21,866 nt of DNA from a virus. A model generated the notes under the pieces. It was not told where the DNA came from, did not search any database, and saw only the letters and a list, made by a program, of their open reading frames with translations. The position numbers and the translations under genes are program-made. Shown here piece after piece: positions 3 to 21,164 of the stretch. Position 1 is the first letter of the stretch. The number at the start of each line of letters is the position of its first letter. The stretch is taken from IMG/VR virus record IMGVR_UViG_3300028553_000190, positions 1 to 21,866 of that record. The stretch is one strand, 5' to 3'.

Positions 3-3000
3 TGTTATACAACTTTAGTGCCAAAAAATATATATGATAGTTCCACATTTAGTGATTATTGTGAGGATGTTAACTTTAGTTTAACATCAAAATATTATAT
101 TTTGCCATCAACAAATAATAATATTACTGATAATAATTTTTTTAAAAATAGTTTAGATAGTTATTATACTTCTTTGGATGAATTATTGGATGTTGCGCAT
201 AATGGTGCAGTTAATGTTACAATGCAAGATACATTTAATTCATTTACATTTAAAAATTTGAAGAAACCTTTACCAACAGAATATTTGAATAGAAAGAAAG
301 ATATTAATTCATTTTCAATATTAAGTTTTGGAGAGTATGCCTCAATTGAGGATATGTTTTCTGTTTTTGATTATGATACATTAAATTTATTTGAGAATGA
401 GTTTTTGGATTTTAGCAAATCAATTTATGACATAAATGAGAATAAGGATCAGATAAATTTGGTTGGATTGGAATATGGCAATCCTGTGGCAGCATATAGA
501 AATTTTCAACTATTATATAGAAATTTGATGGAAGTCCCATCCAATTATCTTAATTTGAATGACACCGACTTTTACAACAAAACAGCAGATTATCAATCTC
601 AAAACATTAGAGAGTTTTTGGATGGATTTTTGAGTTATGATGTTTTGTTTAAATATGGGAATCCAACACAATATAATAGATATGAATATAATTCATTGGT
701 AAGTCATTTAGGTGGAAATTCAACCATACAGAACCAAAAGAGGTTCAAAGGATATGTTGCAAACACTTTACCAAATAACATATCACTTCAATCATCAGAA
801 TTATCAAATGCCCCTGCTTGGGAAACATTAAAATTACATGTTGGGTTCTCCACCATTGAATCTTTGACTTATAAGAATACTGGCTCATATATTACAGATT
901 TCTTTATTGATAATAATATTGAATTTTCATCAGAGAATATCATTGCACTTGCAAAACCAATAAAGATATATGCAACACAAAAGTTAAAAAATCCAAACAT
1001 TACAAGAGAAAATTTCTTGATATTGATGGATAATAACCAAAAAGCATTGGATACATTCTTGGAAGACAATGTAAACCAAACATTATCTTTATTAGAAAAA
1101 GAAATCAATAATATTGATATTGTTGAAATTAATGAGATTTATTCAGGATTGGATAGTAAGTTTTCAAAATATGATTTATATGAAACATTTAAAGCCATAA
1201 ATGATAAATGGATATCTGGTAGTGAATATACAACTCGTACATTATTTGAAGATGTGATATTCTTGGATAGAGGTAATAGGAACATAGGTGATTTGTATTA
1301 TGTTGATATTTTTGATTTAAAGAAGATTTTTATTGGGACAAGAACAAACTTGAAAACCCCTGTCTTTAATTTTATTGGTGGAATCTTGGTTAAGAATAAT
1401 TTTAATGTTTTACCAATGCCATCTTATGTTAATTTTTATGGGGCATTATCTGCAAATGATGATATTAATGATGTTATTGGAACAGCAACAGAAATAGCAA
1501 ATGATGTTTGGGGAAATTATTCTGATGTTGATTATAGGAAATCAGGACCAAAACTTGTTTGCATCTATTCTGGTAGGGGGTCAACAACCCCATCTGGACC
1601 AAAAGATTTTAGATATGGGGATGATGCTATTGATATGTTAAAACCATCAAAGATACCTTTCTTGGAAGACCAGACAAATAAAAAAGATTGGTCACAGTCA
1701 AATAAATGTGTTAGTTTCTTGGTTGATGCAGGAATTAGAAATCAAGCCATATTCTATGGCATTCAAGTGGATCAGAATAGCGGCACAGCAACTCTTGAAT
1801 CATTAATTCAACAGGAGGCTTTAAGAAATTCTGCATCAAATAGGGGTGTAGCAACACAAAGTGTGTCATTATTTAACTTGTATAAGAACTTGAGTTACAA
1901 GTCAACAATTAACTGTATGGGTAATGCATTGATACAACCAACAATGTATTTCAATTTGGAACATGTTCCTATGTTTGGGGGGCCTTATTTTATTACAGAA
2001 GTTTCACATAATATAGCACCAGGTTCATTTGAAACAACATTCACAGGGGTTAGACAAAGTATTTATTCACCCCCAAGCACAGATACATATCTTACAAGTA
2101 TTAATGAAAATTTATTAACAAAGATTGAAAGCAATTTTGCAAAATCTATTGTTAATGAAAAAGATGAAGAGGCAACAGCAACAAATAACACACAAACACA
2201 AGGTTCAAAACAAACAAATTCAAGTAAGTGTGGTAAATATTTATATTCAGGTTATTCTGAATATGAACAAACTACAGAAGAATTAATAGTTTATTCATCA
2301 GCTACACAAATTCATACAGCAATAAATTCAAAATTTCCAGGGAATTCAAAAATGGTAGATTATATATATCTTATTAGTTATTTGGCATCTTATGAAAAAG
2401 ATGGATTTAAGGCAAATCACAATAATTTTGGAAATGTTTGGTTAACCTATTATAGGGGTGATATGGTTGATTACAATTCAGGAGAACCATTACACTTTTG
2501 TGCAAAAATGGATAAAAAGGAGAGCATACAAACACCTTTTGCAGTTTTTGGTTCATTTGATTTATATTTGCTTTATATGGAAAGAGCTTTGATTGGTTTT
2601 ATGGCTCGTTTTTCTAATTTGGAAGGGAGTAATGAGGATAATTTTATTAAATTTTATATTATAGACTGGTTATATGGGCAGAATCCAGGTACTAACACAG
2701 CCTTAGATGCAAACAAGAATTTTGAAAGATTACAGAAGAACAAATTTTATGATGAATTAAATAAGAAATATGCAGATGCAAATATATCATTAAAATCTTT
2801 AAGACCTATAGTAACAGAAGAGCAAAAGGAATTATATGTTAGTGCAAGAAATAAATTAACAGGACCAAAATTAAATAAAGTGTGTGAATATACCTATAAT
2901 AATATTAGGATTTATAGAACACCAGCAGAACCAGAATATACTTTACCATATTATCTTGATATGTTTTTTGAGGCAAAGAATCCAAAAGAATTGTTATATT

Positions 3001-3395
3001 TGGATGCAATGAATAAAACCATAGAAGATACCTTGGTAAGATTATATATACTAGATAGTGCACCATTTATTTCATTTTTTGATGTTAAGGTTAATTCAGG
3101 AGCAACATATAGCATAGCAGTTAGTTTAAAGATAGATAAGCAACCTAATAATATTCCATATACTGGGTTTAAGTTTGGTGCCGAATCTGGGGATACAGCA
3201 ACAAGCGGTTTTGTTGTAACAAATGATATGTTTATAGGTTCGATTACTAGTAATCCTAATTTTAGCAAGGGAAACCAAAAAAAGGAAGAAGATGATATAA
3301 TTGGGGATATAATTTCACATAAAGATAATTTGTTGAACATTAATTATATTGCTGTAAATTATACAAAATTAATTTTATACCCAAAATTGGAGTAA
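3..3395 (+). CDS. Tail/baseplate hub-like structural protein with possible cell-wall-hydrolase segment (5' partial)
   Basis: The reading frame is open from the left edge, with no stop before the first possible start (a GTG at 18), so the gene very likely begins outside the window; at least 1125 residues are inside. The stretch around nt 1900-2070 contains GNALIQPTMYFNLEH, then GGPYFITEVSHNI and FETTFTGVR. This resembles the end of tail-hub domains of the gp27/late-control-D type, which trimerise at the tail tip (inference from pattern). A Gln/Thr/Asn-rich linker near nt 2170-2230 separates this from a second region. There (nt ~2240-2620) YEKDGFKANHNNFGNV is followed by PFAVFGSFDLYLLYM, recalling the NNLFG...F..Y.S layout of glucosaminidase/FlgJ-type muramidases. 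A third region (nt ~2650-3395) is unassigned. The downstream gene starts 52 nt after its stop. A hub carrying a lytic domain would fit piercing of the cell wall, but both domain calls are tentative. It could also be another large baseplate component. Confidence 0.55.
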   Translation, partial: CYTTLVPKNIYDSSTFSDYCEDVNFSLTSKYYILPSTNNNITDNNFFKNSLDSYYTSLDELLDVAHNGAVNVTMQDTFNSFTFKNLKKPLPTEYLNRKKDINSFSILSFGEYASIEDMFSVFDYDTLNLFENEFLDFSKSIYDINENKDQINLVGLEYGNPVAAYRNFQLLYRNLMEVPSNYLNLNDTDFYNKTADYQSQNIREFLDGFLSYDVLFKYGNPTQYNRYEYNSLVSHLGGNSTIQNQKRFKGYVANTLPNNISLQSSELSNAPAWETLKLHVGFSTIESLTYKNTGSYITDFFIDNNIEFSSENIIALAKPIKIYATQKLKNPNITRENFLILMDNNQKALDTFLEDNVNQTLSLLEKEINNIDIVEINEIYSGLDSKFSKYDLYETFKAINDKWISGSEYTTRTLFEDVIFLDRGNRNIGDLYYVDIFDLKKIFIGTRTNLKTPVFNFIGGILVKNNFNVLPMPSYVNFYGALSANDDINDVIGTATEIANDVWGNYSDVDYRKSGPKLVCIYSGRGSTTPSGPKDFRYGDDAIDMLKPSKIPFLEDQTNKKDWSQSNKCVSFLVDAGIRNQAIFYGIQVDQNSGTATLESLIQQEALRNSASNRGVATQSVSLFNLYKNLSYKSTINCMGNALIQPTMYFNLEHVPMFGGPYFITEVSHNIAPGSFETTFTGVRQSIYSPPSTDTYLTSINENLLTKIESNFAKSIVNEKDEEATATNNTQTQGSKQTNSSKCGKYLYSGYSEYEQTTEELIVYSSATQIHTAINSKFPGNSKMVDYIYLISYLASYEKDGFKANHNNFGNVWLTYYRGDMVDYNSGEPLHFCAKMDKKESIQTPFAVFGSFDLYLLYMERALIGFMARFSNLEGSNEDNFIKFYIIDWLYGQNPGTNTALDANKNFERLQKNKFYDELNKKYADANISLKSLRPIVTEEQKELYVSARNKLTGPKLNKVCEYTYNNIRIYRTPAEPEYTLPYYLDMFFEAKNPKELLYLDAMNKTIEDTLVRLYILDSAPFISFFDVKVNSGATYSIAVSLKIDKQPNNIPYTGFKFGAESGDTATSGFVVTNDMFIGSITSNPNFSKGNQKKEEDDIIGDIISHKDNLLNINYIAVNYTKLILYPKLE

Positions 3396-3421
3396 ATTAT
3401 TTTGATAATTCAAAATATTGA

Positions 3422-3431
3422 TATATTTATA
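3422..3431 (+). promoter_or_regulatory. Candidate late promoter element TATATTTATA
   Basis: An exact copy of TATATTTATA ends 16 nt before the ATG at 3448. The same 10-mer precedes two other presumed late genes in this window, and a near match precedes a fourth. By position it could be a -10-type element giving a very short leader, comparable in role to the T4 late TATAAATA box. That role is inference. The region is AT-rich, so a single copy would mean little; the shared spacing is the argument. Confidence 0.4.
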
Positions 3432-3447
3432 TGTAAAATAAATTGAC

Positions 3448-3654
3448 ATGATTGAAAATTTGAATAACTACTTAAAATCAACAACACAACAAACATTGGA
3501 TGATGGTTCAAAAGAAGTTTGTGACTTAATTACAGGAGAATGCTATGTTGTTAAGGAAAAAGATGGTTTAATAGAAAGAACTGAAAATAAAACAGTAAAT
3601 AGACAGGTTAAGGTTAAAACTCATGGGGGTATAAAAGAATTATTAAATGACTAA
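3448..3654 (+). CDS. Small hypothetical protein (68 aa) with CDLITGEC motif
   Basis: I do not recognise a family. The product is a small, charged, soluble 68-residue protein with no signal peptide or membrane segment. It has two cysteines in the pattern C-x6-C (CDLITGEC), followed by a charged stretch KEKDGLIER and a basic/polar C-terminal half. Two cysteines alone do not make a recognisable zinc site, although pairing in a dimer is possible. The ATG at 3448 has no Shine-Dalgarno sequence but has the TATATTTATA element 16 nt upstream. Its stop overlaps the next gene's start by 8 nt (ATGACTAA), so the two are probably translationally coupled and may act in the same structure. Context suggests a virion or virion-assembly role. 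That it is a real gene is likely from the tight coupling and codon pattern. Confidence 0.7.
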   Translation: MIENLNNYLKSTTQQTLDDGSKEVCDLITGECYVVKEKDGLIERTENKTVNRQVKVKTHGGIKELLND

Positions 3655-4378
3655 TAAAATGAAAATAGATCAGAAAATATTAAATGAAATTAATAGATAC
3701 CACAATATAAATAGGTATATTACAGAACAAGATGCACCTCCACCACCACCTTTAGGTGATCCTATGTCAAATCCCAATGCTGCACCAATGCCTAATGCAC
3801 CTATGACACCCCCAGGCGAAGTTTCACCAATACCTCCAGGTGGGGGTGAAGACCCTTTAAGTGCTGCAAATCCCCAACCAATAGATGTTGAAAATGATGA
3901 TGATGTTACAGTTATTGATGATGAGGGTGATAGCAAAGAAGGTGATGAAGATTCAGAAGAATTGGATATTACAGATTTGGTTTCAAGCCAGAAGAATATG
4001 GAAACAAAGCAGAATGAGTATTTTGATAATTTGTTTGCACAGATTGATAAATTGGAACAGAAGTTGGCAACAATGGATGGTATTTTTGATAAATTAAATG
4101 CCATAGATTCCAAGGTGGAGAAGTATAGAGAAAAAACTCCGGAGGAAAAACTTGAATTAAGGACATATGATTCTTATCCTTTTAACCAAAAGTTATCCCA
4201 ATTTTTTGATGACAAACAAGTTGAAATGGAAAAGAGTGGAAAAAATGATTATGTTTTGACATCTGATGATGTTACAAACATAAACCCAAATGAGATTAAA
4301 GATACTTTTTTCCCAACAGGTGATGAAGGTGAAGATGATGATTTTAACAATAATCAGGGATATAAAAATAGATTTTAA
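3647..4378 (+). CDS. Proline-rich, acidic, coiled-coil phage protein (243 aa), possible virion/scaffold-type protein
   Basis: No family is recognised with certainty. The N-terminus (after a possible internal start at 3659) carries LNEINRYHNINRYITEQ, an amphipathic tag-like helix. It is followed by a Pro/Met/Asn/Gly-rich disordered stretch (residues ~27-75) and a strongly acidic stretch (residues ~78-108, many D and E). Next come a predicted coiled coil (residues ~115-160, with repeats such as DNLFAQIDKLEQKLATMDGIF), a mixed globular segment, and an acidic tail rich in D, E and N. No cysteine or membrane helix is seen. The start at 3647 overlaps the stop of the 68-aa gene, and a strong terminator follows 20 nt after the stop, so it ends the left structural unit. 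Low complexity, acidity and a coiled coil suit a scaffold-like, chaperone-like or internal virion protein (inference). The minus-strand open frame over its proline-rich part is a compositional shadow. Confidence 0.72.
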   Translation: MTNKMKIDQKILNEINRYHNINRYITEQDAPPPPPLGDPMSNPNAAPMPNAPMTPPGEVSPIPPGGGEDPLSAANPQPIDVENDDDVTVIDDEGDSKEGDEDSEELDITDLVSSQKNMETKQNEYFDNLFAQIDKLEQKLATMDGIFDKLNAIDSKVEKYREKTPEEKLELRTYDSYPFNQKLSQFFDDKQVEMEKSGKNDYVLTSDDVTNINPNEIKDTFFPTGDEGEDDDFNNNQGYKNRF

Positions 4379-4398
4379 GTAATTAATATTTTTTTTAG

Positions 4399-4426
4399 AA
4401 AAAGGGGGTAACACCCCTTTTTTTTT
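4399..4426 (+). terminator. Rho-independent terminator
   Basis: A stem of AAAAA-GGGGGT pairs with ACCCC-TTTTTT around the 3-nt loop AAC (one G-T pair), followed immediately by a T run (4418-4426). It lies 20 nt after the 243-aa gene and before the gp32-like gene, separating the structural block from the replication block. The outer A/T arms make it partly able to work from the other strand as well. Confidence 0.9.
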
Positions 4427-4443
4427 CCTTTAAACTCACCTAT

Positions 4444-4466
4444 CATTGTAGAGTTAAAGCATTGTA
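4444..4466 (+). repeat. Direct repeat CATTGTA x2 in the gp32-like gene leader
   Basis: CATTGTA occurs at 4444-4450 and 4460-4466, a 16-bp period, in the 57-nt gap between the terminator and the ATG at 4484. T4 gp32 represses its own translation by binding its leader, so a repeated site here could be an operator or a pair of promoter -35-like boxes. Neither role is shown by sequence, and I cannot fold a convincing pseudoknot from it by eye. Confidence 0.3.
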
Positions 4467-4483
4467 AACAAAAACTATATAAT

Positions 4484-5341
4484 ATGTCGAATTTAGATGC
4501 CATAATGGCGCAGTATGAAAAAAACCAAAAAGGGGAGTCCCAAAAATTATCACAGGAAGACAGAATGAAACGTTATTTTATATTACTGTTAAATGACAAA
4601 GAAAGTACAGGGCAAAGAAGGATTAGAATTTTACCAACAACAGATGGTTCATCTGTGTTTAAGGAAGCATGGTTTCATGAATTACAAGTTGGTGGCTACT
4701 ACCAGAAGATTTATGACCCAGCAGGAAACGACAATGAGGCATCCCCATTGGCTGATGTGTATAATGCGCTTAAAGCAACAAAGAGAAAAGATGATGACGA
4801 ATTGGCAAAAGATTACAAAGCCAAATTATTCTATGTTGTTAAGGTGATTGACCGTGACAATGAACAAGATGGACCAAAATATTGGAGGTTCAAACACAAT
4901 TACAAGAAAGATGGCATTCTTGATAAGATTATTCCAATCTTTAGAAACAAGGGGGATATATCTGATATGGATGCAGGAAGAGATTTGATTATTGAATTAG
5001 TTAAATCAAAAAGTCCAAAAGGTAAGGAATACACAACTGTTTCAACAATCATGTATGATGACCCAACCCCATTATCTGCAGATGAAAATCTTGCAAAGAA
5101 ATGGGCAAATGATGAATCAACATGGAGAGATGTTTATAGCAGGAAACCATTAGAATATCTTGAAGCAATTTCAAGAGGTGAATCCCCAAGATGGGATGAT
5201 TCCCAAGGTAAATATGTTTATCTAAATAGTTCAAATTCAGAGGCATCATTTGGCGGTTCAGTTGTTGCAAAAAACGCAACAACTCAGCAAACAAGTGTTA
5301 TTGTTGAAGAGGAGTATAGTGATGATGAATTACCATTTTAA
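4484..5341 (+). CDS. 32: gp32-like single-stranded DNA-binding protein
   Basis: Coats ssDNA during replication and recombination and recruits partner proteins. The 285-residue product follows the T4 gp32 plan: an N-terminal segment, RIRILPTTDGSS (residues ~46-57) matching the gp32 'IRFLP' strand, a core with KLFYVVKVIDRD and KYWRFKHNYKKDGILDKI (residues ~114-149), and an acidic C-terminal tail. Two features are odd. The region aligned with the T4 zinc-binding His/Cys cluster reads YDPAGNDNEASPLADVY (residues ~77-93), and the whole protein has no cysteine, so the zinc site is gone. The final residues are DDELPF, like the DDDIPF tip of bacterial SSB. It is the first gene after a terminator and is followed by a large hairpin and then uvsX, the classic gp32-UvsX partnership. 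The start at 4484 has no Shine-Dalgarno sequence. The family call is by pattern rather than search but is well supported by neighbours. Confidence 0.85.
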   Translation: MSNLDAIMAQYEKNQKGESQKLSQEDRMKRYFILLLNDKESTGQRRIRILPTTDGSSVFKEAWFHELQVGGYYQKIYDPAGNDNEASPLADVYNALKATKRKDDDELAKDYKAKLFYVVKVIDRDNEQDGPKYWRFKHNYKKDGILDKIIPIFRNKGDISDMDAGRDLIIELVKSKSPKGKEYTTVSTIMYDDPTPLSADENLAKKWANDESTWRDVYSRKPLEYLEAISRGESPRWDDSQGKYVYLNSSNSEASFGGSVVAKNATTQQTSVIVEEEYSDDELPF

Positions 5342-9360: not shown

Positions 9361-11067
9361 ATGAAGAACATTTTTGAAAAGAGGGTAAATATTTTACCTT
9401 ATGAATATCCATCCTTATTAGCGTATAAGGATGCTATTAGGCACTCATACTGGATTGCAACTGAATTCAATTTCACAACTGACATTGATGATTATAGGAC
9501 AAAAATAAGTCATGAGGAGCGTGAAGTTATTAAAAGAACTATGTTGGCAATTGCACAAATTGAGGTGAATGTGAAAACATTTTGGGCTGACTTATATAAG
9601 AGAATGCCCATAACTGAAATTGGTGATGTTGGTATGACATTTGCAGAATGCCATGGTGAGGGAACTGAAATACTAACACCCAAAGGTTGGGTTAACTTTA
9701 AGGATATTGATACTAATACAGAGGTTATTCAATATGATTTAGAAACCAACACAATGACATCTGTTTTACCAAGTAATGTTATCAATGAACCTTACAAGGG
9801 AAAGATGCATAGGATTGAGAACCAAACATACAATGCATTACTAACCCCCAACCATAACATTTACTACAAAAATAGGAGTGGTGATATTGTTAAGAAGGCT
9901 ATTAAAGATATTAATGCTTTTAGTAGTGATATGGAACTACCTTTTTCTGGTAAATTTGTTAATGAGGGTGTTGATGAGTTGAGTTTGGAGGATAAAATTA
10001 ATATTGGAAACTTTGATTGGGTTGATTTATCAGATAAGTCTGAAAAGTGGTGCAATTCTTTTATTTATGAATTAACAAAATTGGAGGGGTCTAAACTTGA
10101 TAGTGAGACTCAGAATGGTGATTATATTATTAAACACCAAACTATTAGTAAATTGTTTGCAGATAAGTTGCAAGTTATAGGTATTTTTGCTGGGTATGTA
10201 GTTGATATAACTAATGATAAAGATGTTTACAATGTAAGTTTTGTAAAAACTAACACCTTTTCTTCTATAACTGATAAACCTACTATTGAAGATTATGATG
10301 GTAACATCTATTGTGTTACAGTTCCTACTGGATGTATTGTGACTAGATATAATGACAAAGTTTTAATTTCAGGAAACTCGGAAGTTCGTCATAAGGATGC
10401 TTATGCTCAATTATTAAGAATTCTTGGATTGGAGAATGAATTCCAGACTGTTATTGAAATTCCAGCTATAAAGAATAGAATTAGTTATTTGGCAAAATAT
10501 TTAGATGGGACAAGGAGTAGGGAGAATAAAATGTACACAAAGTCTGTATTATTATTTTCATTATTTATTGAACATGTGAGTTTGTTTAGCCAGTTCTTGA
10601 TTATGATGTCCTTCAACAAGGAGAAAAATCTATTCAAAGGTATTTCAAATGTTGTTGAGGCTACCTCAAAGGAGGAAGAAATCCATGGTAATTTTGGATC
10701 AGAACTTATCAACATTATCAAAGAAGAAAATCCAGAATGGTTTGACGAAGAATTTGAGGCATTGATTGTGTCAGCTTGTCATAAAGCATATGCCGCTGAA
10801 TGTGGAATATTGGATTGGATATTTGAGAACGGTGAATTAAGTTTCTTGTCAAAAGATACAATTAAACATTTCATTCAAAACAGATTTAACAATTCATTAA
10901 ATAGAATTGGAATGAAGTCAGTATTTGAAGTTGATTTTACAGAGATTGAGAAGACATTATGGTTTGATGTGGAGATTTTATCAACAAAGGAGGGGGATTT
11001 CTTCTATAAAAAATCGGTGGATTATAATAAAAAGAGCAAGAGTATAACAGAGGATGACTTATTTTAA
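9361..11067 (+). CDS. nrdB: Class I ribonucleotide reductase small subunit (NrdB), interrupted by an intein
   Basis: Holds the di-metal/tyrosyl radical cofactor that starts reduction of ribonucleotides in NrdA. The 568-residue precursor becomes a 325-residue NrdB when the 243-residue intein (Cys97-Asn339) is removed, a normal length for compact NrdB. The joined sequence FAE-SEVRHKDAY restores the ligand helix: Glu341 and His344 are metal ligands and Tyr348 is the radical tyrosine, matching E. coli SETIHSRSY. Further ligands by pattern are Glu68 (in AQIEVNVKTFW), Glu404 (FIEHVSLF) and Glu439/His442 (KEEEIH). All six ligand positions therefore look filled, with Glu rather than Asp at the first. 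The C-terminal tail, SITEDDLF, is acidic/hydrophobic as needed to dock on NrdA. nrdA follows after 12 nt; the order nrdB-nrdA is the reverse of T4. Activity depends on intein splicing. Confidence 0.93.
   Translation: MKNIFEKRVNILPYEYPSLLAYKDAIRHSYWIATEFNFTTDIDDYRTKISHEEREVIKRTMLAIAQIEVNVKTFWADLYKRMPITEIGDVGMTFAECHGEGTEILTPKGWVNFKDIDTNTEVIQYDLETNTMTSVLPSNVINEPYKGKMHRIENQTYNALLTPNHNIYYKNRSGDIVKKAIKDINAFSSDMELPFSGKFVNEGVDELSLEDKINIGNFDWVDLSDKSEKWCNSFIYELTKLEGSKLDSETQNGDYIIKHQTISKLFADKLQVIGIFAGYVVDITNDKDVYNVSFVKTNTFSSITDKPTIEDYDGNIYCVTVPTGCIVTRYNDKVLISGNSEVRHKDAYAQLLRILGLENEFQTVIEIPAIKNRISYLAKYLDGTRSRENKMYTKSVLLFSLFIEHVSLFSQFLIMMSFNKEKNLFKGISNVVEATSKEEEIHGNFGSELINIIKEENPEWFDEEFEALIVSACHKAYAAECGILDWIFENGELSFLSKDTIKHFIQNRFNNSLNRIGMKSVFEVDFTEIEKTLWFDVEILSTKEGDFFYKKSVDYNKKSKSITEDDLF
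9649..10377 (+). mobile_element. Intein in NrdB (243 aa, Cys97-Asn339)
   Basis: An in-frame protein intron. Block A is CHGEGTEILTPKGW with nucleophile Cys97. Block B is LTPNH (Thr162...His165). Block F is YCVTVPTGCIVTRYNDKVL, and block G is ISGN with Asn339, followed by Ser340 as the +1 residue. The penultimate residue is Gly rather than the usual His. Between blocks B and F are about 130 residues with no LAGLIDADG motif. However, ISKLFADKLQVIGIFAGYVVDIT...YNVSFVKTN resembles the C-terminal end of a LAGLIDADG-type endonuclease domain, so this looks like a decayed homing intein. The insertion site, just before SEVRH, abuts the metal-ligand helix. Removal gives an unbroken NrdB alignment, which strongly supports splicing ends. 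Confidence 0.92.
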
Positions 11068-11079
11068 AAAACAAACAAA

Positions 11080-13422
11080 ATGAATAAAGAAAAATATTAT
11101 TGGTTAAATGATGAGAGTAGGCTTTTCTTATCAAGGGGATATATTAGTGAAACCCCCGAGCAAAGGATTAAAGATATTGCAAATAAAGCAGAGGAATATT
11201 TAAAAATTGATGGGTTTGCTGTTAAGTTTGAGGATTATATGGCAAGGGGTTTTTATAGCCTATCAACACCTGTATGGATTAATTTTGGCAAGGAGAAGGG
11301 ATTACCAATTTCCTGCTATGGTTCCAATATTGACGATACTTTAGACAGTATTCTAAATGCTGGAAGGGAGATTGGAATGATGTCAAAATATGGTGGTGGA
11401 ACAAGTGCCTATCTTGGTAATATTAGGGCTAGGGGTAGCAAGATATCAACAGGTGGAACAGCAGATGGTCCAGTTCATTATGCAAGAATTTATGATACAG
11501 TAGTTGATGTATGTAAGCAATCAGAGGCAAGAAGGGGTGCATGTGCAGTTTGGCTACCAATTGAACATGATGATATTTTGGAGTTCTTGGATATTGGAAC
11601 AGAAGGCAATCCTATCCAAAATTTACAATATGGAATTACAGTTACAGATAATTGGATTAATGACATGAAGGGGGGTAATCCAACCAAGAGAAAGATATGG
11701 GCAAAAATAATTCAAAGGCGCAATGAGTTTGGGTTTCCATATATTATGTTTAAGGATAATTCAAATAACAATTCCCCCTACAAAGAATTGGGTATGGAGA
11801 TAACTGCAAGTAACCTTTGTTTAACAGAAGACCAAAGAGTTGTCACATCAAAAGGTTATTTGACTGTTAAAGAGTTATATGAGAGTGGTGAGGAATTGGT
11901 TTTATTTAGTGGAAATGAAGCGGTTAAATCATCTCCTATGTTATTGAGAAATGAAGATGCTGAAATATTGAAAATAACATATTCAAATAGAATGACACAA
12001 AAGGTGACATTTAATCATGGGATACCAGTTTTTAATGATACTACAAAAGATATTGTAAGAGTTGAAGCAAAAGATTTGAAAATTGGTGACTACGTTGCTT
12101 TGCAAACAGAAAAAGGTTTGTTTGGTGATTTGGATATGCAAGATGAGGCTTATTTGTTGGGTGCGGCAAATAGTCTTTTGAGTGAAGATAAACCTAAAAA
12201 TATTATTCCATCATATATCTGGAAAGCAAATGAAGAGACAGTAAAGGCTTATTTACATGGTTTGTTTAACATATCGAGTTATAATGATGATGGTTTATAT
12301 ATTGGGGATAATAAATTCATTTCTGATTTGCAAATATTATTTAGTAATTTAGGAATTAATTGTAATGTTGAAACTTTGAATAGTAATACATCAAAAATTA
12401 CAATAAAAAAACATAATGGTGAGTTGGGGGTTAAGGTTGTTGCAATTGAGCAATTAGAAAATGAGCCAGTATATTGTCCAACAGTTGATAATGATGAACA
12501 TATCTTTGTATCAAATGGTTTGAGAACATTTAACTGTTCAGAAATTCAATTACCAACAGATTCATTAAATTCTTTTGTTTGTTGTTTGGGTTCATTGAAT
12601 TTACTTCATTGGGATGAGATAGTTGAGACTGATGCAATTGAGGTTTACACAATGTTCTTAAATGCTGTTATGGATGAATTTATATTGAAGTCAGGTAAAA
12701 TGGCTGGGATGAAAAGGGCTAATAGGTTTGCATCACAACATAGAGCAATTGGCTTGGGGGTTTTAGGGTATCATTCATTATTCCAATCCAAATTAATTCA
12801 ATTTGAATCTTTGATGGCAAAGCAATTAAATCATCAAATATTTAAAATAATTAAAGAGAAATCAGAATTGGCTTCAAAATATTTATATGAAGAGAATGGA
12901 TATAGATGTTTAAGAGAGGGATATGCCAATACAACACTAATAGCTATTGCCCCGACCAAATCAAGTTCATTTATTCTAGGACAGGTAAGTATGGGTATTG
13001 AGCCAATCAAATCAAATTATTTTATTAAAGATTTGGCAAAATCAAAAACAATTTATAAGAATCCATTTTTGGAGATTGAATTGGATAAATATGGTTTAAA
13101 TACCCCAGATACTTGGGAGAGCATTTTGAAGAAGGATGGATCAGTGCAGCACTTGGATTTCCCAACCAAGGAGGTTTTCAAATCATTCATTGAAATATCA
13201 CCAAAAGAACTTATATTACAAGCAGCACAGAGGCAGAAATATATTGACCAATCACAATCACTTAATTTGATGATACATCCATCAGTTCCAGCAAAAGATA
13301 TAAATCAATTATATTTGTATGCACATGAGGAGGGGGTTAAGACGCTTTACTATCAGTTTAGCCAGAGTTCAGCACAATCATTTGCAAGGAATATTAATGA
13401 GTGTGTGAGTTGTGAATCATAG
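11080..13422 (+). CDS. nrdA: Class I ribonucleotide reductase large subunit (NrdA), interrupted by an intein
   Basis: Reduces ribonucleoside diphosphates to deoxy forms using the radical delivered by NrdB. The 780-residue precursor becomes 541 residues after loss of the 239-residue intein (Cys247-Asn485). That is short for NrdA: the first catalytic motif begins about 60 residues in (STPVWINFG...PISCYGSN, Cys79 = E. coli Cys225), so there is no room for an N-terminal ATP-cone. GGGTSAYLGNIR and SEARRGACAVWLP follow. The split motif SNL-CSEI (Asn245; Cys486 = thiyl-radical Cys439; Glu488) is restored by splicing. Cys501 (FVCCLGSLNL) is the second redox-active Cys. KTLYYQ (Tyr757, Tyr758) carries the radical-transfer tyrosines, and CVSC (Cys775, Cys778) is the C-terminal redox pair. 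Every residue of the mechanism appears to be present. It lies 12 nt after nrdB and is closed by a bidirectional terminator. It is the only + strand gene here that ends in TAG. Confidence 0.93.
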   Translation: MNKEKYYWLNDESRLFLSRGYISETPEQRIKDIANKAEEYLKIDGFAVKFEDYMARGFYSLSTPVWINFGKEKGLPISCYGSNIDDTLDSILNAGREIGMMSKYGGGTSAYLGNIRARGSKISTGGTADGPVHYARIYDTVVDVCKQSEARRGACAVWLPIEHDDILEFLDIGTEGNPIQNLQYGITVTDNWINDMKGGNPTKRKIWAKIIQRRNEFGFPYIMFKDNSNNNSPYKELGMEITASNLCLTEDQRVVTSKGYLTVKELYESGEELVLFSGNEAVKSSPMLLRNEDAEILKITYSNRMTQKVTFNHGIPVFNDTTKDIVRVEAKDLKIGDYVALQTEKGLFGDLDMQDEAYLLGAANSLLSEDKPKNIIPSYIWKANEETVKAYLHGLFNISSYNDDGLYIGDNKFISDLQILFSNLGINCNVETLNSNTSKITIKKHNGELGVKVVAIEQLENEPVYCPTVDNDEHIFVSNGLRTFNCSEIQLPTDSLNSFVCCLGSLNLLHWDEIVETDAIEVYTMFLNAVMDEFILKSGKMAGMKRANRFASQHRAIGLGVLGYHSLFQSKLIQFESLMAKQLNHQIFKIIKEKSELASKYLYEENGYRCLREGYANTTLIAIAPTKSSSFILGQVSMGIEPIKSNYFIKDLAKSKTIYKNPFLEIELDKYGLNTPDTWESILKKDGSVQHLDFPTKEVFKSFIEISPKELILQAAQRQKYIDQSQSLNLMIHPSVPAKDINQLYLYAHEEGVKTLYYQFSQSSAQSFARNINECVSCES
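11818..12534 (+). mobile_element. Intein in NrdA (239 aa, Cys247-Asn485)
   Basis: Block A begins CLTEDQRVVTSKGYLTV with Cys247. Block B is VTFNHGIPVF (Thr310, His313). The last residues are IFVSNGLRTFN with Asn485, then Cys486 as the +1 residue. The penultimate residue is Phe, not His. A LAGLIDADG endonuclease remnant is visible: AYLLGAANSLLSED (residues 357-370) where a motif such as AYLLGLxxGDG is expected, and AYLHGLFNISSY (residues 390-401) where GLFDADG is expected. Both catalytic acidic positions are lost, so DNA cleavage is unlikely. The +1 Cys needed for splicing is the same residue as the thiyl-radical cysteine of NrdA. Removing the segment gives the canonical NLCSEI motif. Confidence 0.93.
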
Positions 13423-16241: not shown

Positions 16242-19200
16242 ATGCAAAATAGTTTTAGAATTAGGACTGAAATTGGACGAGATAAAGTTGTTAATTTTCA
16301 GTTAGACCAAAATATTGAATTCCTTGAAATTTTATCTTTCAAAATAAGACAATCAGATGTTTATACATTGGATTGTGCAAACTATGGAGTTGTTACAGGG
16401 AGGGTTACAGCAAATAATGGTTTTGGTATTCCAAATGCTAGAGTTTCAATTTTTATTCCATTAAGTGAAGAGGATGAGAACAATGAGTTAATTACCTCCA
16501 TATATCCATATAAGACAATAAATGATAAGAATGAGGATGGTTATAGGTATAATTTATTACCATATGAACCATCATATCCTGGGCATGTTGCAACAGGAAC
16601 ATTTCCTTCATTGAATGATGTTATGTTTGATGGTCAAGCTATTGAGGTATATGAGAAGTATTACAAATATACAGTAAAGACAAATTCAAGTGGGGATTAT
16701 ATGATATTTGGCATTCCTGTTGGAAGTTATACCATATTAATGGATCTTGATTTGTCAAATATGGGTGAGTATTCATTGACCCCCCAAGATTTGATTAGAA
16801 TGGGGATGGCAACAGAAGGGCAGTTTGATAATAATCAATATCAAAAATCAACTGATTTAAATTCATTACCACAAATTGTATCCATATCAAAAGGTTTGAA
16901 CATTTCACCATTGTGGGGGAATATTGAAACTTGTGATTCATCCATAAATAGGGTTGATTTTGATTTAAGGGATGATGTTAATATTGATATACAGCCCACA
17001 GCAATATTTATGGGGTCAATATTTAGCACAGCATCAAGTAAAAGAATACGTTCAAACTGTAAACCAAAAGATGATTTTGGTAATTTATGTGGGTTAGAGA
17101 GTGGTCCAGGTGAGATATTGGCAATAAGACAATCATTTAATAAAGATAATAAAGGTTTACCAGTTTTGGAAACATTTAGGGTTGGTAAAGTTATAGATGA
17201 AAATGGTGCATGGGTTGTTGAATTGCCTATGAATTTGGAGTATGTCATAACAAATGAAAATGGGGATAAGATAATAACAAATGACCCAACCATAGGAATA
17301 CCAACAAAAGCAAAATATAGATTTAAAGTAAAGTGGGAGCAATCAGAAAAAATAAGTGAGCAAACAAAACGTGCATATTTCCTTGTTCCAAATATAAGGG
17401 AATATGGGTGGGATTCTAATGGTACATTTAATTCAAATTCTCAAAATAAATTAGATTTAGCAAAATCTTATTATTTTGGATTGGATTGGGATGGATATGC
17501 AAATGTTGATGCAGCAATAAAGTGTGAGGATACATTTTATGAATTTAAATCAAACAAGGTATATACTGTATCAAGTTTGATTGACCAATATAGAGGGGGT
17601 TCAAATAAGGGTAGTTTTATTGGTATTAAAGAAATTGCAGATACATCTTGTGATTCAACAACAAATAAATATCCAGTTAATGATGGGGTTAGGAATTTTG
17701 ATTTTCTTTATTTTGTGTTTTCAATCTTGTTACTTTTGTTTTCAACTACGGGTAGGGTATTAGTAATAGTTTATCACTTTGTCAAATTTTTATGGAACTT
17801 ATTTGCGGTGCCATTAGTTTATGCTGTTTCAATTGCATTACCTATTGTTACAGCCTTTTTATTTCTTCAAGCAGCAACATCTTTCCCATCAGTTGGATTG
17901 ATATTAGGTTTTGCGGCTTTGGGTGCTTTAGCAACAAAAGCAACAATAGAATGGTTTAAGGTTTTTAAAGATGTTAAGAATTTTAGATTTCAAGCATTAA
18001 CTTTACCTATGATAACTTATCCTGACTGTGAACTTTGTGATTGCAGTGGGGGTGATATGGAGCGGTCTGATAGTGGTATTCCAACTGGGGGTTTAATATC
18101 CCAATTGGCTAACCCTGCTTTGTATAAGGAAGGTATTACAGCTAAAGTTGAAACTTTAATAAAGAGTAATAAGTATAGTAATAGTAGGGAGGAGGAAATG
18201 TTACTTGATTCTGATAATATGGTTTCATTAGCAACAGAAGCATATGTAGGACAAATATATGATGCAAATAAGCCAAATAGATTTAGAGCATTATTTTCCA
18301 ATATTTATTTAATGCCTTCAAATAGGACGCAAGTTTCAGCAGCAAGTTTAGGTTTATCCCCTGCTGAAAGAATTAACAAATTTAATCATAGGGAAAATTA
18401 TTTCAAGGGGAATACAAGGATTGGGGTTACTTTTGCTAGTAAATTTAATTTAAACCAACATAATGATAATGTTTTAATTGTTATTACAAGTGAAAATAGA
18501 GAATCTGGAACATTATTAACTTTTTTGAATTTTGACAAATCAAAGGATATTAATTACATATCAGGTTATACAGCCACAACAAAAATCTCAGCAGAAACAA
18601 AGAACCAAACAATAAATGTATCTTATGCAAATCCATCAAATCCAAAATCTTCATTAACTAAACAGTATAAATTACCATATGGTGTTGACATTGATAAGTA
18701 TTTATTTCCTGCTGATATTGAGTTTTATCAAGTATTAACTGGTATGACTATATCTGAATTCAAAAATAAAAATAAAAATAAGTCTATTAACCCAGGAAAT
18801 GATGTTTCATTTATGTGGGAATGTTTAAAACCAAGAAGTACACAATTATTTATTGATTATGCAGAGGGGAAGGATCCAAATACTTTCCAATGGCAAAATG
18901 AGATTTTTTCAAAAATATCATCTGGTGATGATGGTGTTATAAATTATTTTAATGAGTTTGAAAATCAGTATGTTTTAATTTTACAGAGAGGGGTTGATCC
19001 ATATTCTCCATTATATGAGAATACATATAGTTTGGGAAATATTTTTGGGTTTTCTGATATTAATTCTATTAAAATAACAACAAATGCAAGATTAAATATA
19101 CCAATACAATCAACACAAAACTATTCAATACAAGAAATTTCCAATGCTAATGAAGTTTTATTTGATTCTTATTTTTTGAAACCTATAAATACTAGCATTG

Positions 19201-21164
19201 GATTTGGGTCAAATCAAGCATATCCTTTTCCTACGGATGCAAATGGGTATTATTCAAGCACAGTATTAACTGGGAATGCTTCAAAACCAAAAGGGTTTAA
19301 GTTTTTTAGTTTTACTGGTAATTTACAGGGATTGCAAGTTGATTCAAATAACTTATTCACAAGAGGTAGTTTCTTAAAAATAGATGGACTTAATTTTAGA
19401 GTATCAAATGGTTATGATTTATCAGATAATTTACTTGGGCTATCAACCTACTATGTAAGTAATGATATGATTGCAAATAAGAAAAAAAGTAATTTTTTGA
19501 AGCGGTTGTTAAGAGGGGAGGAAGTGTATTCAAATACTTATACAACACAAACATCTTTTTCAGAAAGTATAACAAATGAGAATCAATTGTATGTTAATAA
19601 TAAGACAATATTTAGGACAGATAGGTTGCCGACATCAGATTATTTAGATGGTGCATCTTGGTCATCAACAACAGTTAATGGTTTTTATATTAATAAAGGG
19701 CAAGCAGCAGCATTACAACAAAATTTAGGATTTGCAACTTATGAAATTGTTGGGTCAGAACAATTTGCGGATAACCCAATACCATCAACAGATACAGGAT
19801 ATTCGCCACAAGATTTTTCAGGATATACTATGTCGGAAAATTTATTAACAACTTTGAATAGTTGCAATAATATGGTTAGTTTAAGTTGTTATACTGGCAA
19901 AGGAGTTGATTTTAAAGTGGATGAAACTTGTTCAGATAAAGATTCTGTTGAAAATGGATGCTATACTTTTGCAAAGAGAACTTTACTTGATATACCAAAA
20001 GATTTGAGAACATACACAGAATGGATTAATAGACTTAGATTTTTCTATGCTTTATGTAGAGGAGTGGTTTCAGAGGTCTTTGTAAATAACTGGGTAAATG
20101 GATCATTATTTGCCTTTCCAATCCAAACAAAAATTAAATATGATAACAATAATCAAGCTATTCTTGATGAGGAATCTTATTGTGATGATTTAATATATTT
20201 TGATAAAAGTACAAGTAATTTCTATTACCGTAGTTCCCCCTACAACAGGAGTAAAGATAGTTTTGTTGGTAGGACAGTAACCAAATTTGAGGAGAATAAA
20301 AAAAATTTACTGTTCCCAACTACAATAATGGATTTAGGTTATAAGAATTCATTATATGGTTTTAATAGTGATAATTTTGAATATTATTCATTTGTTATGA
20401 ATAATTTAGAGCCAACAAGTTATGGAGATAATTCTGACATTCTTAATCTATTTGCAATTAGTAGGATTACAAATGGTAATTTCATAAAGAATTTAAAAAA
20501 TATAAATGATTTATTTTCAAGAGACTACAAAAAAACAGATGGTGATTATAGTCAATTACTATCCATAAATTCTGAATTTGGTGTGGATAAATTTTCTACT
20601 GAATTTTATAGTATGACAAATAGTGCTAATTCAGAAATATCTATTCAATATGATAAAAAGGGTAATCCTGTTATTGGTGTTTTTTATTCATCATCACAAG
20701 ATGATTTGCAATTGAAAGATTATTTAACGCCAGGCAGAGTTAATTTTAGAACACAGACTAATGAGTTAAAACCAAAATATTTTGGAATTAAATCTCAAAA
20801 AGTTCCATTCTATCAATGGGAAGTAAAAGGGTCTAATGTTTTTTTTGGAGATGAAACAAATACATGGTACACAGCAACAATTATATCTGATGAGTATCAA
20901 AATTTAGATAGAATTAAACCAGATTTGGCAACACTAAAAAAGTCTTTTAACCCAAAGAATACTGAAAAATATTTCTATAATGATGAAAGTCTTTTGAGTT
21001 ATAACAATGATAGGGGTTATTTATACAATAGTAAAAATCAAGCAACTAAATATAATAATAGAAAAAACATATTTGCAGTTGGTGCACCATTTTATTTTTA
21101 TTTTGGTATAAAAAAAGGGGCTTCGGCTTTGGATGTCTTTAAAACAAAATATTTAAATGAATAA
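16242..21164 (+). CDS. Giant baseplate-cluster protein (1640 aa) with carboxypeptidase-regulatory-like domain and hydrophobic membrane-like segment
   Basis: No full-length family is recognised. It occupies the place of T4 gene 7 (after 6) but is longer (1640 versus 1032 aa) and not obviously similar. Residues ~1-45 (SFRIRTEIGRDKVVNFQLDQN) look like a docking segment. Residues ~47-170 (GVVTGRVTANNGFGIPNARVSIFIP...SSGDYMIFGIPVGSYTILMDL) fit a carboxypeptidase-regulatory-like beta fold with an insertion. Residues ~486-575 are strongly hydrophobic (FLYFVFSILLLLF, AVPLVYAVSIALPIVTAFLFLQ, VGLILGFAALGAL), enough for three or four membrane helices. Immediately after, Cys596, Cys599 and Cys601 form CELCDC. 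The remaining ~1000 residues are beta-rich, polar and Asn/Ser-rich; around residues 1206-1240 they contain a second Cys-rich stretch (NSCNNMVSLSCYTG, CSDKD, NGCYTF). The next gene starts inside its stop (ATGAATAA). It is probably a virion protein; a role in contacting or crossing the host envelope is inference. Confidence 0.75.
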   Translation: MQNSFRIRTEIGRDKVVNFQLDQNIEFLEILSFKIRQSDVYTLDCANYGVVTGRVTANNGFGIPNARVSIFIPLSEEDENNELITSIYPYKTINDKNEDGYRYNLLPYEPSYPGHVATGTFPSLNDVMFDGQAIEVYEKYYKYTVKTNSSGDYMIFGIPVGSYTILMDLDLSNMGEYSLTPQDLIRMGMATEGQFDNNQYQKSTDLNSLPQIVSISKGLNISPLWGNIETCDSSINRVDFDLRDDVNIDIQPTAIFMGSIFSTASSKRIRSNCKPKDDFGNLCGLESGPGEILAIRQSFNKDNKGLPVLETFRVGKVIDENGAWVVELPMNLEYVITNENGDKIITNDPTIGIPTKAKYRFKVKWEQSEKISEQTKRAYFLVPNIREYGWDSNGTFNSNSQNKLDLAKSYYFGLDWDGYANVDAAIKCEDTFYEFKSNKVYTVSSLIDQYRGGSNKGSFIGIKEIADTSCDSTTNKYPVNDGVRNFDFLYFVFSILLLLFSTTGRVLVIVYHFVKFLWNLFAVPLVYAVSIALPIVTAFLFLQAATSFPSVGLILGFAALGALATKATIEWFKVFKDVKNFRFQALTLPMITYPDCELCDCSGGDMERSDSGIPTGGLISQLANPALYKEGITAKVETLIKSNKYSNSREEEMLLDSDNMVSLATEAYVGQIYDANKPNRFRALFSNIYLMPSNRTQVSAASLGLSPAERINKFNHRENYFKGNTRIGVTFASKFNLNQHNDNVLIVITSENRESGTLLTFLNFDKSKDINYISGYTATTKISAETKNQTINVSYANPSNPKSSLTKQYKLPYGVDIDKYLFPADIEFYQVLTGMTISEFKNKNKNKSINPGNDVSFMWECLKPRSTQLFIDYAEGKDPNTFQWQNEIFSKISSGDDGVINYFNEFENQYVLILQRGVDPYSPLYENTYSLGNIFGFSDINSIKITTNARLNIPIQSTQNYSIQEISNANEVLFDSYFLKPINTSIGFGSNQAYPFPTDANGYYSSTVLTGNASKPKGFKFFSFTGNLQGLQVDSNNLFTRGSFLKIDGLNFRVSNGYDLSDNLLGLSTYYVSNDMIANKKKSNFLKRLLRGEEVYSNTYTTQTSFSESITNENQLYVNNKTIFRTDRLPTSDYLDGASWSSTTVNGFYINKGQAAALQQNLGFATYEIVGSEQFADNPIPSTDTGYSPQDFSGYTMSENLLTTLNSCNNMVSLSCYTGKGVDFKVDETCSDKDSVENGCYTFAKRTLLDIPKDLRTYTEWINRLRFFYALCRGVVSEVFVNNWVNGSLFAFPIQTKIKYDNNNQAILDEESYCDDLIYFDKSTSNFYYRSSPYNRSKDSFVGRTVTKFEENKKNLLFPTTIMDLGYKNSLYGFNSDNFEYYSFVMNNLEPTSYGDNSDILNLFAISRITNGNFIKNLKNINDLFSRDYKKTDGDYSQLLSINSEFGVDKFSTEFYSMTNSANSEISIQYDKKGNPVIGVFYSSSQDDLQLKDYLTPGRVNFRTQTNELKPKYFGIKSQKVPFYQWEVKGSNVFFGDETNTWYTATIISDEYQNLDRIKPDLATLKKSFNPKNTEKYFYNDESLLSYNNDRGYLYNSKNQATKYNNRKNIFAVGAPFYFYFGIKKGASALDVFKTKYLNE
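18762..18779 (+). repeat. Short tandem repeat (AAAAAT)x3
   Basis: Three perfect hexamers within the giant gene encode a KNKNKNK run. The repeat is in frame and harmless to the reading frame, and may be a slippage-prone spot. Confidence 0.7.

Follow-up and report, generated by a model that had tools for sequence, protein, structure and literature searches.

A mini-intein at the radical-cysteine codon of nrdA in an IMG/VR virus record

The virus record IMGVR_UViG_3300028553_000190 of IMG/VR, 21,866 bases long and analysed here in its entirety (the window), carries an nrdA gene for the large subunit of a class I ribonucleotide reductase (RNR), and within the frame of that gene lies a stretch of 239 codons that reads as an intein placed directly before the cysteine that bears the radical of the enzyme. 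When this insert is left out NrdA reads SNL-CSEI across the junction. A second element of the kind interrupts nrdB, the gene for the small subunit, and the features of both genes are collected in Table 1.

Table 1. Features of the RNR genes of the window (aa, amino acids; L numbers are handles for related loci)
Feature	Coordinates	Strand	Basis or remark
nrdB, RNR small subunit precursor, 568 aa	9361..11067	+	Pfam Ribonuc_red_sm, 172.7 bits
NrdB mini-intein, 243 aa, CHGEGTEI...VLISGN, Gly penultimate	9649..10377	+	boundaries from empty homologues
NrdB intein +1 Ser and next residue Glu (E. coli E115 metal ligand)	10378..10383	+	E. coli NrdB alignment
nrdA, class I RNR large subunit precursor	11080..13422	+	single uninterrupted frame, 780 aa; 541 aa once spliced
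N-extein of NrdA, ending MEITASNL	11080..11817	+	alignments with PDB relatives and with E. coli and T4 NrdA
Cys79 of joined NrdA (E. coli C225)	11314..11316	+	empty in the window; +1 residue of another intein in L006, L007, L048 and L106
NrdA mini-intein, 239 aa, CLTEDQRV...GLRTFN, precursor residues 247-485	11818..12534	+	Pfam Intein_splicing; empty-site homologues; Hint-fold match on a modest-confidence model
N-terminal splicing domain (Cys1; block B TFNH, T64/H67)	11818..12159	+	C1, T64 and H67 invariant in intein alignments
Shrunken endonuclease remnant	12160..12435	+	alignment with full-length relatives; both LAGLIDADG motifs lost
C-terminal splicing domain (block F VYCPTVDNDEH, block G NGLRTFN; Phe penultimate, Asn terminal)	12436..12534	+	motif reading, alignments
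Cys486 of precursor = Cys247 joined = E. coli C439; intein +1 residue and thiyl-radical Cys	12535..12537	+	E. coli and T4 alignment
C-extein of NrdA, beginning CSEIQLP	12535..13419	+	alignments with PDB relatives and with E. coli and T4 NrdA
Cys262 of joined NrdA (E. coli C462)	12580..12582	+	insert-free among NrdA frames compared

The insert and the radical cysteine

The NrdA of the window is recognised by TIGR02510 (NrdE-prime, 650 bits against a cut-off of 602) and by Pfam Ribonuc_red_lgC (299 bits). In a phmmer search of PDB sequences the best relatives align with it in two blocks that meet at the radical cysteine (residues 5-248 and 486-779 for 6dqx, 5-247 and 486-780 for 6dqw), and when residues 247-485 are removed and the joined protein is aligned with NrdA of E. 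coli MG1655 and of T4, Cys247 falls on E. coli C439, flanked by Asn245 on N437 and Glu249 on E441. In E. coli NrdA C439 is the thiyl-radical cysteine. The same alignment places Cys79 on C225 and Cys262 on C462 and finds counterparts for Y730/Y731 and C754/C759, and all nine of the RNR residues checked are present. A preliminary description of this DNA had proposed an intein with the radical cysteine at +1, which this alignment and the Pfam Intein_splicing match given below bear out; the span it gave, 11818-12537, is one codon too long, the insert being nucleotides 11818-12534 and the last codon (12535-12537) being that of the +1 cysteine, which lies outside the intein. It was silent on the missing endonuclease, on the Phe that stands where a penultimate His is usual and on the further intein in NrdB of this operon.

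The assignment of the insert to class 1 is supported by its sequence. It begins with a cysteine, at a position where class 1 has Cys or Ser, and this residue is invariant in three intein alignments (A1-A3); the Thr-x-x-His of block B is present as T64-F-N-H67, with T64 and H67 invariant in alignments A2 and A3; it ends with an asparagine, N239, and the next residue is Cys, where Cys, Ser or Thr is called for; and its removal in frame restores a conserved extein, SNLCSEIQL, which is found uninterrupted at 61 empty-site loci. The +1 residue, aligned with E. coli NrdA C439, likewise marks it as a radical-cysteine allele. Position 4 of block F is Cys, the less usual choice, Asp being the commonest there and Cys second (PMC4031507; this and the other articles given by PMC number are cited for excerpts). 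Taken alone the insert scores 37.3 bits with Pfam Intein_splicing (cut-off 35.8), and within the whole of NrdA 33.5 bits, under that cut-off, while NCBIfam intein_Cterm gives 17.2 bits in the whole protein (cut-off 15.6) and 13.1 for the insert alone, that is without the +1 Cys. A structure model of the intein, of modest confidence (mean predicted local distance difference test score, pLDDT, of 62), finds its best match in 5o9j (Z 11.7, root mean square deviation 3.1 over 138 residues) and also matches the NrdJ-1 split intein 8ubs (Z 9.6), and among the structure matches listed for this model all 50 are inteins or other Hint domains (Z 11.7-7.8). A profile search of PDB sequences with alignment A3 gave no significant match, the best being a KlbA intein at E 0.036. 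A split intein in the window is ruled out by the single 780-aa frame, and a group I intron by the continuous in-frame coding insert with intein motifs, a search of RNA families not having been made.

After translation Cys1 would form the N-terminal thioester, the +1 radical cysteine would attack it and the terminal Asn would cyclise, so that the two halves of NrdA would be joined via the same cysteine that later bears the thiyl radical. This order of chemical steps is established for class 1 inteins, and for the window intein we infer it. With 239 aa inserted beside the radical cysteine, the anatomy suggests that NrdA would be inactive before splicing.

The same codon in related phages

Relatives were gathered by an intein scan (23 loci), which finds carriers by design, and by a C-extein scan (the best 80 of 591 confirmed stretches), and locus counts from the two are not population frequencies. 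After 14 entries were excluded (11 repeats of contigs already counted and three pieces of the window), 94 distinct loci were classified: the site is empty in 61, holds an intein read end to end in 22, the window included, and is cut off, split or not parsed in 11 (L020, L024, L025, L026, L072, L085, L086, L087, L095, L104 and L107). The 22 complete inteins comprise 20 of the window family and those of the named phages L105 and L106. Window-family inteins are of 239 aa in five records (the window and L004-L007), 375 aa in seven and 376 aa in eight, and because the window and L004 are near-identical and L006 and L007 lie together on the NrdA tree, the mini form is known from few lineages. The preliminary description had allowed that homologues might hold residues 247-485 as a normal NrdA domain, yet none of the homologues read has them as an ordinary part of the protein. 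That the insert is a normal domain of an NrdA subfamily, a reading for which no support was found, is refuted by the empty-site homologues (61 of 94 loci, with NrdA otherwise collinear); the variation of insert length and type at one codon and the Intein_splicing match also stand against it, and it can be given next to no weight.

Relatives whose NrdA is 93-97% identical to that of the window lack the intein cleanly. The earlier statement that the element cannot be lost by changes that spoil the cysteine holds for such changes, but as a claim of permanence it goes too far, given these clean empty alleles and the 10 changes of state among 33 tips of the tree described below; precise gain or loss of the intein does happen. 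Intein removal has to be precise (PMC2814812). Among the NrdA frames compared inserts occupy only two of the 541 positions, both with a catalytic Cys as +1, while the joined protein offers 78 Cys, Ser or Thr residues past the first (9 C, 46 S and 23 T); inteins in general favour conserved sites that precede C, S or T and are often catalytic (PMC2814812, PMC7765530, PMC5874633).

The window intein is not itself a LAGLIDADG homing intein by its domain content, a Pfam LAGLIDADG match being absent. Both full-length relatives scanned match LAGLIDADG_3 (L008 with 45.4 bits, L014 with 51.1), and in an alignment with the full-length form the mini form is missing four stretches as well as both LAGLIDADG motifs, LLGLYQSDG having become LLGAANSLL and GLLYADG having become GLFNISS. 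Full-length relatives would be the DNA-cutting form. Mini-inteins are thought to arise by endonuclease loss, RNR being a common intein host (PMC7765530), and both mini and large forms occur among surveyed intein alleles (PMC4071816).

Comparison of the window with the full-length L008 gives an uneven picture. The N-splicing domain is 99% identical in DNA (synonymous divergence, dS, 0.03) and the C-splicing domain 100%, while the centre of the intein has 35% amino acid identity (dS about 1) and the exteins have dS of 0.48 and 0.31. At sites that differ between the mini L005 and the full-length L008, the window sides with L008 at six of six over the final 102 nt of the intein and at five of six over the first 342 nt, and its centre differs from that of L005 by 2 nt; the discriminating sites of the exteins are mixed (L005 vs L008, 28 vs 33 in the C-extein and 15 vs 8 in part of the N-extein). 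The window intein is therefore a mosaic, its splicing halves following the full-length allele and its centre the mini allele, and recombination between mini and full-length alleles within the splicing domains is the best explanation.

The mini-intein is under purifying selection. Between the window and L006 the ratio of non-synonymous to synonymous divergence (dN/dS) is 0.25 overall (Fisher p 3.6e-7), with 0.21 in the splicing parts (p 9.9e-5) and 0.28 in the remnant (p 8.6e-4); between the window and L005 it is 0.08 overall (p 2.5e-6), the remnant there showing a single synonymous and a single non-synonymous change (0.24, p 0.35), which makes it uninformative. NrdB mini-inteins compared with four relatives give 0.14-0.26. 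The centres of full-length alleles show lower values, about 0.09-0.17 in four pairs, and so the remnant appears relaxed though still constrained; selection linked to splicing is the simplest reason for that constraint.

Inteins at RNR active sites are known as a class, as the preliminary description had noted, and the placement is not special to the window phage. The same NLC site is used in SPbeta bnrdE (L104), in nrdE2 of a Staphylococcus SPbeta-like phage (L107), in Silviavirus V1SA22 (L105) and in phage LR756511 (L106), and an RNR intein of virus L026 occupies the equivalent NPC site. The bnrdE intein of SPbeta (SPBc2, NC_001884), reportedly described by Lazarevic et al. in 1998, also interrupts a phage RNR large subunit at the same radical cysteine (FSNL/C...N/CSEV); it is longer (385 aa), 28% identical to the window intein and annotated in related records as lying in a class Ib NrdE, whereas the window has an endonuclease-less mini-intein in a NrdA of NrdE-prime type. 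The radical-cysteine intein of the uncultured phage LR756511 (595 kb) is 37% identical, but the inteins there are longer (367 and 382 aa), the second stands at the C225-equivalent Cys, and NrdB aligns free of inserts. In L105 (Staphylococcus phage V1SA22, 2236-3234) the same-site intein has a Gly-Gln end in place of Asn; the CIV RNR intein splices with a C-terminal Gln (PMC4031507).

A further arrangement is a fractured nrdA, in which the same codon of related phage genes is the point of a split. In L085, L086, L087 and L095 one part encodes the N-extein with the N-intein and the next the C-intein with the C-extein, and two more contigs, L148 and L150, came from a scan with the split N-intein, making six. 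These differ from the window in having two open reading frames (ORFs), another intein sequence and, where the ORFs were listed (L087 and L095, in which the intein halves lie on two genes), an endonuclease gene of 314 aa between the halves, and they would splice in trans. In L087 the 314-aa ORF has a match in a homing endonuclease family of PHROGs, with Pfam HNH just below cut-off. Dassa et al. are said to have described such fractured genes in 2009.

The separate intein before Cys79, the C225 equivalent, is of 359 aa in L006 and L048 and of 382 aa in L106. The RNR operon of L006 has three inteins, at the C225- and C439-equivalent cysteines of NrdA (2417-3493 and 4001-4717) and before the E115 equivalent of NrdB. 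Several RNR large-subunit insertion sites are likewise described for the rir1 alleles (rir1-b, -g, -k, -l and -m; PMC4071816), which are compared with the window here by description. A survey of phage RNR genes that contain introns and inteins has been published (PMC3653736). In the literature searched, which excluded the likeliest papers, none was found to equate the +1 residue of an RNR intein with the radical cysteine, and the point is not claimed to be unpublished. The placement, then, is of a known kind; the present analysis adds to it this record, the pair of endonuclease-less elements in the two subunits, the mosaic and a site-centred footprint.

Mobility and the homing footprint

The intein family is mobile, because its members stay similar where the exteins diverge and because codons associated with intein presence peak at the insertion site. 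Between the window and L012 the N- and C-exteins share 71% and 75% amino acid identity and the N-splicing domains 96%; the corresponding figures are 68%, 72% and 97% for L022 and L014, and 65%, 70% and 89% for L012 and L022. On a tree built from 73 unique nrdA sequences in joined form, the clade spanning the window and L006 has 33 tips (15 with intein, 18 empty), among which parsimony needs 10 presence/absence changes against a mean of 11.1 under shuffled labels (10 or fewer in 333 of 1000 shuffles), and so there is no sign of presence following descent. A scan of genome contigs with alignment A1 confirmed one relative in 49 stretches and so, at the sensitivity it had, revealed no reservoir in cells. 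The one relative, L173 (1152-2285), has a full-length intein of 56% identity at the same site, on a 4.2 kb contig that is filed under a Neisseriaceae metagenome-assembled genome, has a nrdB end upstream and may be a phage contig.

Within the 33-tip clade codons associate most strongly with intein presence in the five on either flank of the junction (mean z 5.4 and 3.7); at +10 to +20 the mean is lower, 2.1, and in bins more than 20 codons away it is close to zero. The five highest of the five-codon segments (n = 541) start at codons -5 to -1, and the 10-codon segment centred on the junction ranks second of 536 and is reached by none of 1000 label shuffles; after thinning to 25 tips one shuffle in 1000 reaches the observed value, and after thinning to 20 tips none in 1000.

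This footprint fits homing, either through co-conversion of the flanks or through the survival of recoded empty sites, and the data favour neither of the two. The second of these, an alternative that concerns the footprint and not the intein, holds that synonymous changes in the codons around the invariant cysteine let empty alleles evade homing. The flank TCA-AAT-(TTA or CTT)-TGT-TCA, a pattern picked after inspection of the table, occurs in 10 of the 15 intein alleles and none of the 18 empty ones of the clade, and the empty alleles vary more among themselves at the site (85.6-87.1% identity over 10 codons each side, against 90.8-93.0% in bins at least 20 codons off). However, the six-fold Ser and Leu codons at the site raise diversity regardless, the window and L004 have the intein with the AGT-AAC flank that is common in empty alleles, and co-conversion accounts for the association equally well; recoding in place of co-conversion is a possible but doubtful account.

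The NrdB intein and readings of the locus

The plus strand of the window holds a T4-like set of genes for a single-strand DNA binding protein, a UvsX-like recombinase, an exonuclease, a DnaB-like helicase, nrdB, nrdA and two baseplate wedge subunits. In its larger wedge protein the window is nearest, among named phages, to Flavobacterium phage immuto, at 28.9% identity, followed by a Microcystis phage (28.8%), and a host in Bacteroidota is a guess. Two very long frames, 18-3395 (1125 aa) and 16242-21164 (1640 aa), have no PHROGs match at E 0.001. A free-standing HNH-type ORF of 283 aa in the nrdB-nrdA gap of L016 (2415-3263; Pfam HNH just below cut-off) is absent from the window.

The NrdB insert sits between FAE and SEVRH, where relatives have 325-327 aa or are empty, and scores 21.3 bits with Pfam Intein_splicing, under the cut-off of 35.8. 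R2 inteins adjoin metal-ligating residues, and that of Aquifex aeolicus NrdB (R2) resembles the window NrdB intein in standing at the small-subunit metal site, but it carries a LAGLIDADG domain and its insertion point falls between ligands E228 and H231, whereas the window NrdB intein is short and precedes the E115 equivalent (PMC8772380). A mini NrdA intein is paired with a mini NrdB intein in all four contigs readable for both, which represent two lineages on the NrdA tree; among 12 contigs with a full-length NrdA intein and NrdB state read, none has a mini NrdB intein (six empty, four full-length, two partial), one further contig being unresolved, and four contigs have a mini NrdB intein alongside an empty NrdA site. 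Correlated decay of the two inteins was considered and set aside, the lineages being too few and mini NrdB occurring also with empty NrdA.

Several observations count against a working intein with a history of homing. The usual penultimate His is absent, the window having Phe238; NCBIfam intein_Nterm reaches 22.8 bits at best, under its cut-off of 24.5; the structure model of the intein is weak; splicing of the NrdA intein is itself something that we infer; all 33 tips derive from related, non-independent metagenomic contigs; single distant codons of nrdA (e.g. -162, -160 and +192) also associate with intein presence; and in a footprint test on NrdB (25 unique close sequences, 17 with intein and eight without) distant codons score as high or higher with no peak unique to the site, and homing at the NrdB site is therefore unsupported. 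The penultimate His is an assisting residue, usual but dispensable, of which variants are described (PMC4031507, PMC5050341), and it is poorly conserved in mycobacteriophage inteins (PMC5050341). It is present in the intein of L173, and Phe takes its place in every one of the 20 complete window-family inteins, among them the full-length copies.

The loss of the endonuclease and the replacement of that His might also mark a decayed, non-splicing intein in a dead nrdA, the phage relying on host RNR, and nrdA genes of Campylobacter phages have been described as degenerating with inteins (PMC3653736). The 780-codon frame is however intact, none of the checked RNR residues is missing, dN/dS of the NrdA and NrdB mini-inteins is 0.08-0.26 in the seven pairs computed, and the Phe is common to the whole family, so that a dead gene is improbable. 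At the other extreme the inteins might form a regulated maturation switch, in which catalytic residues of both subunits stay blocked until a joint release (governed by timing, metal loading or redox state), the remnants being retained for this role. The mini-inteins at catalytic positions in both subunits, their pairing in four of four contigs and the continued selection on the remnant suit this idea, as does the Aquifex R2 intein, which is linked to higher iron content and activity in the spliced protein (PMC8772380). Two lineages are nonetheless all that the four contigs represent, empty alleles are common in the closest relatives and would make a switch dispensable, and folding and splicing alone can explain selection on the remnant; we think such a switch unlikely. 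As little credit can be given to a fuller form of it, a lock with two keys in which the NrdA radical site and the NrdB metal site form only after each has spliced and the remnants are selected to tune maturation in infection. If true, it would mean that mobile elements had been domesticated in both subunits of one enzyme, acting for example through NrdB metal loading or redox-gated release of the radical cysteine.

Overall it is highly probable that the insert is a class 1, Cys-initiated mini-intein at the radical-cysteine codon, descended from a LAGLIDADG homing intein, with its endonuclease decayed and its splicing kept by selection. The ancestor would have been a LAGLIDADG homing intein specialised on the radical-cysteine codon of phage nrdA; full-length relatives would spread into empty alleles by homing, and in the window lineage the endonuclease has decayed while splicing would have been retained, because NrdA is made only if splicing works. 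NrdB would hold a second such element at its metal site.

In this enzyme a single residue would take part in two kinds of chemistry, the acyl transfer of splicing and the abstraction of hydrogen during ribonucleotide reduction. At one codon there is a natural series of empty, endonuclease-bearing and endonuclease-less alleles in NrdA proteins that differ by as little as 3%, with the split form in more distant relatives, and this series would make the life cycle of an intein testable in one gene, including escape from homing by synonymous recoding of a target that is invariant in the protein.

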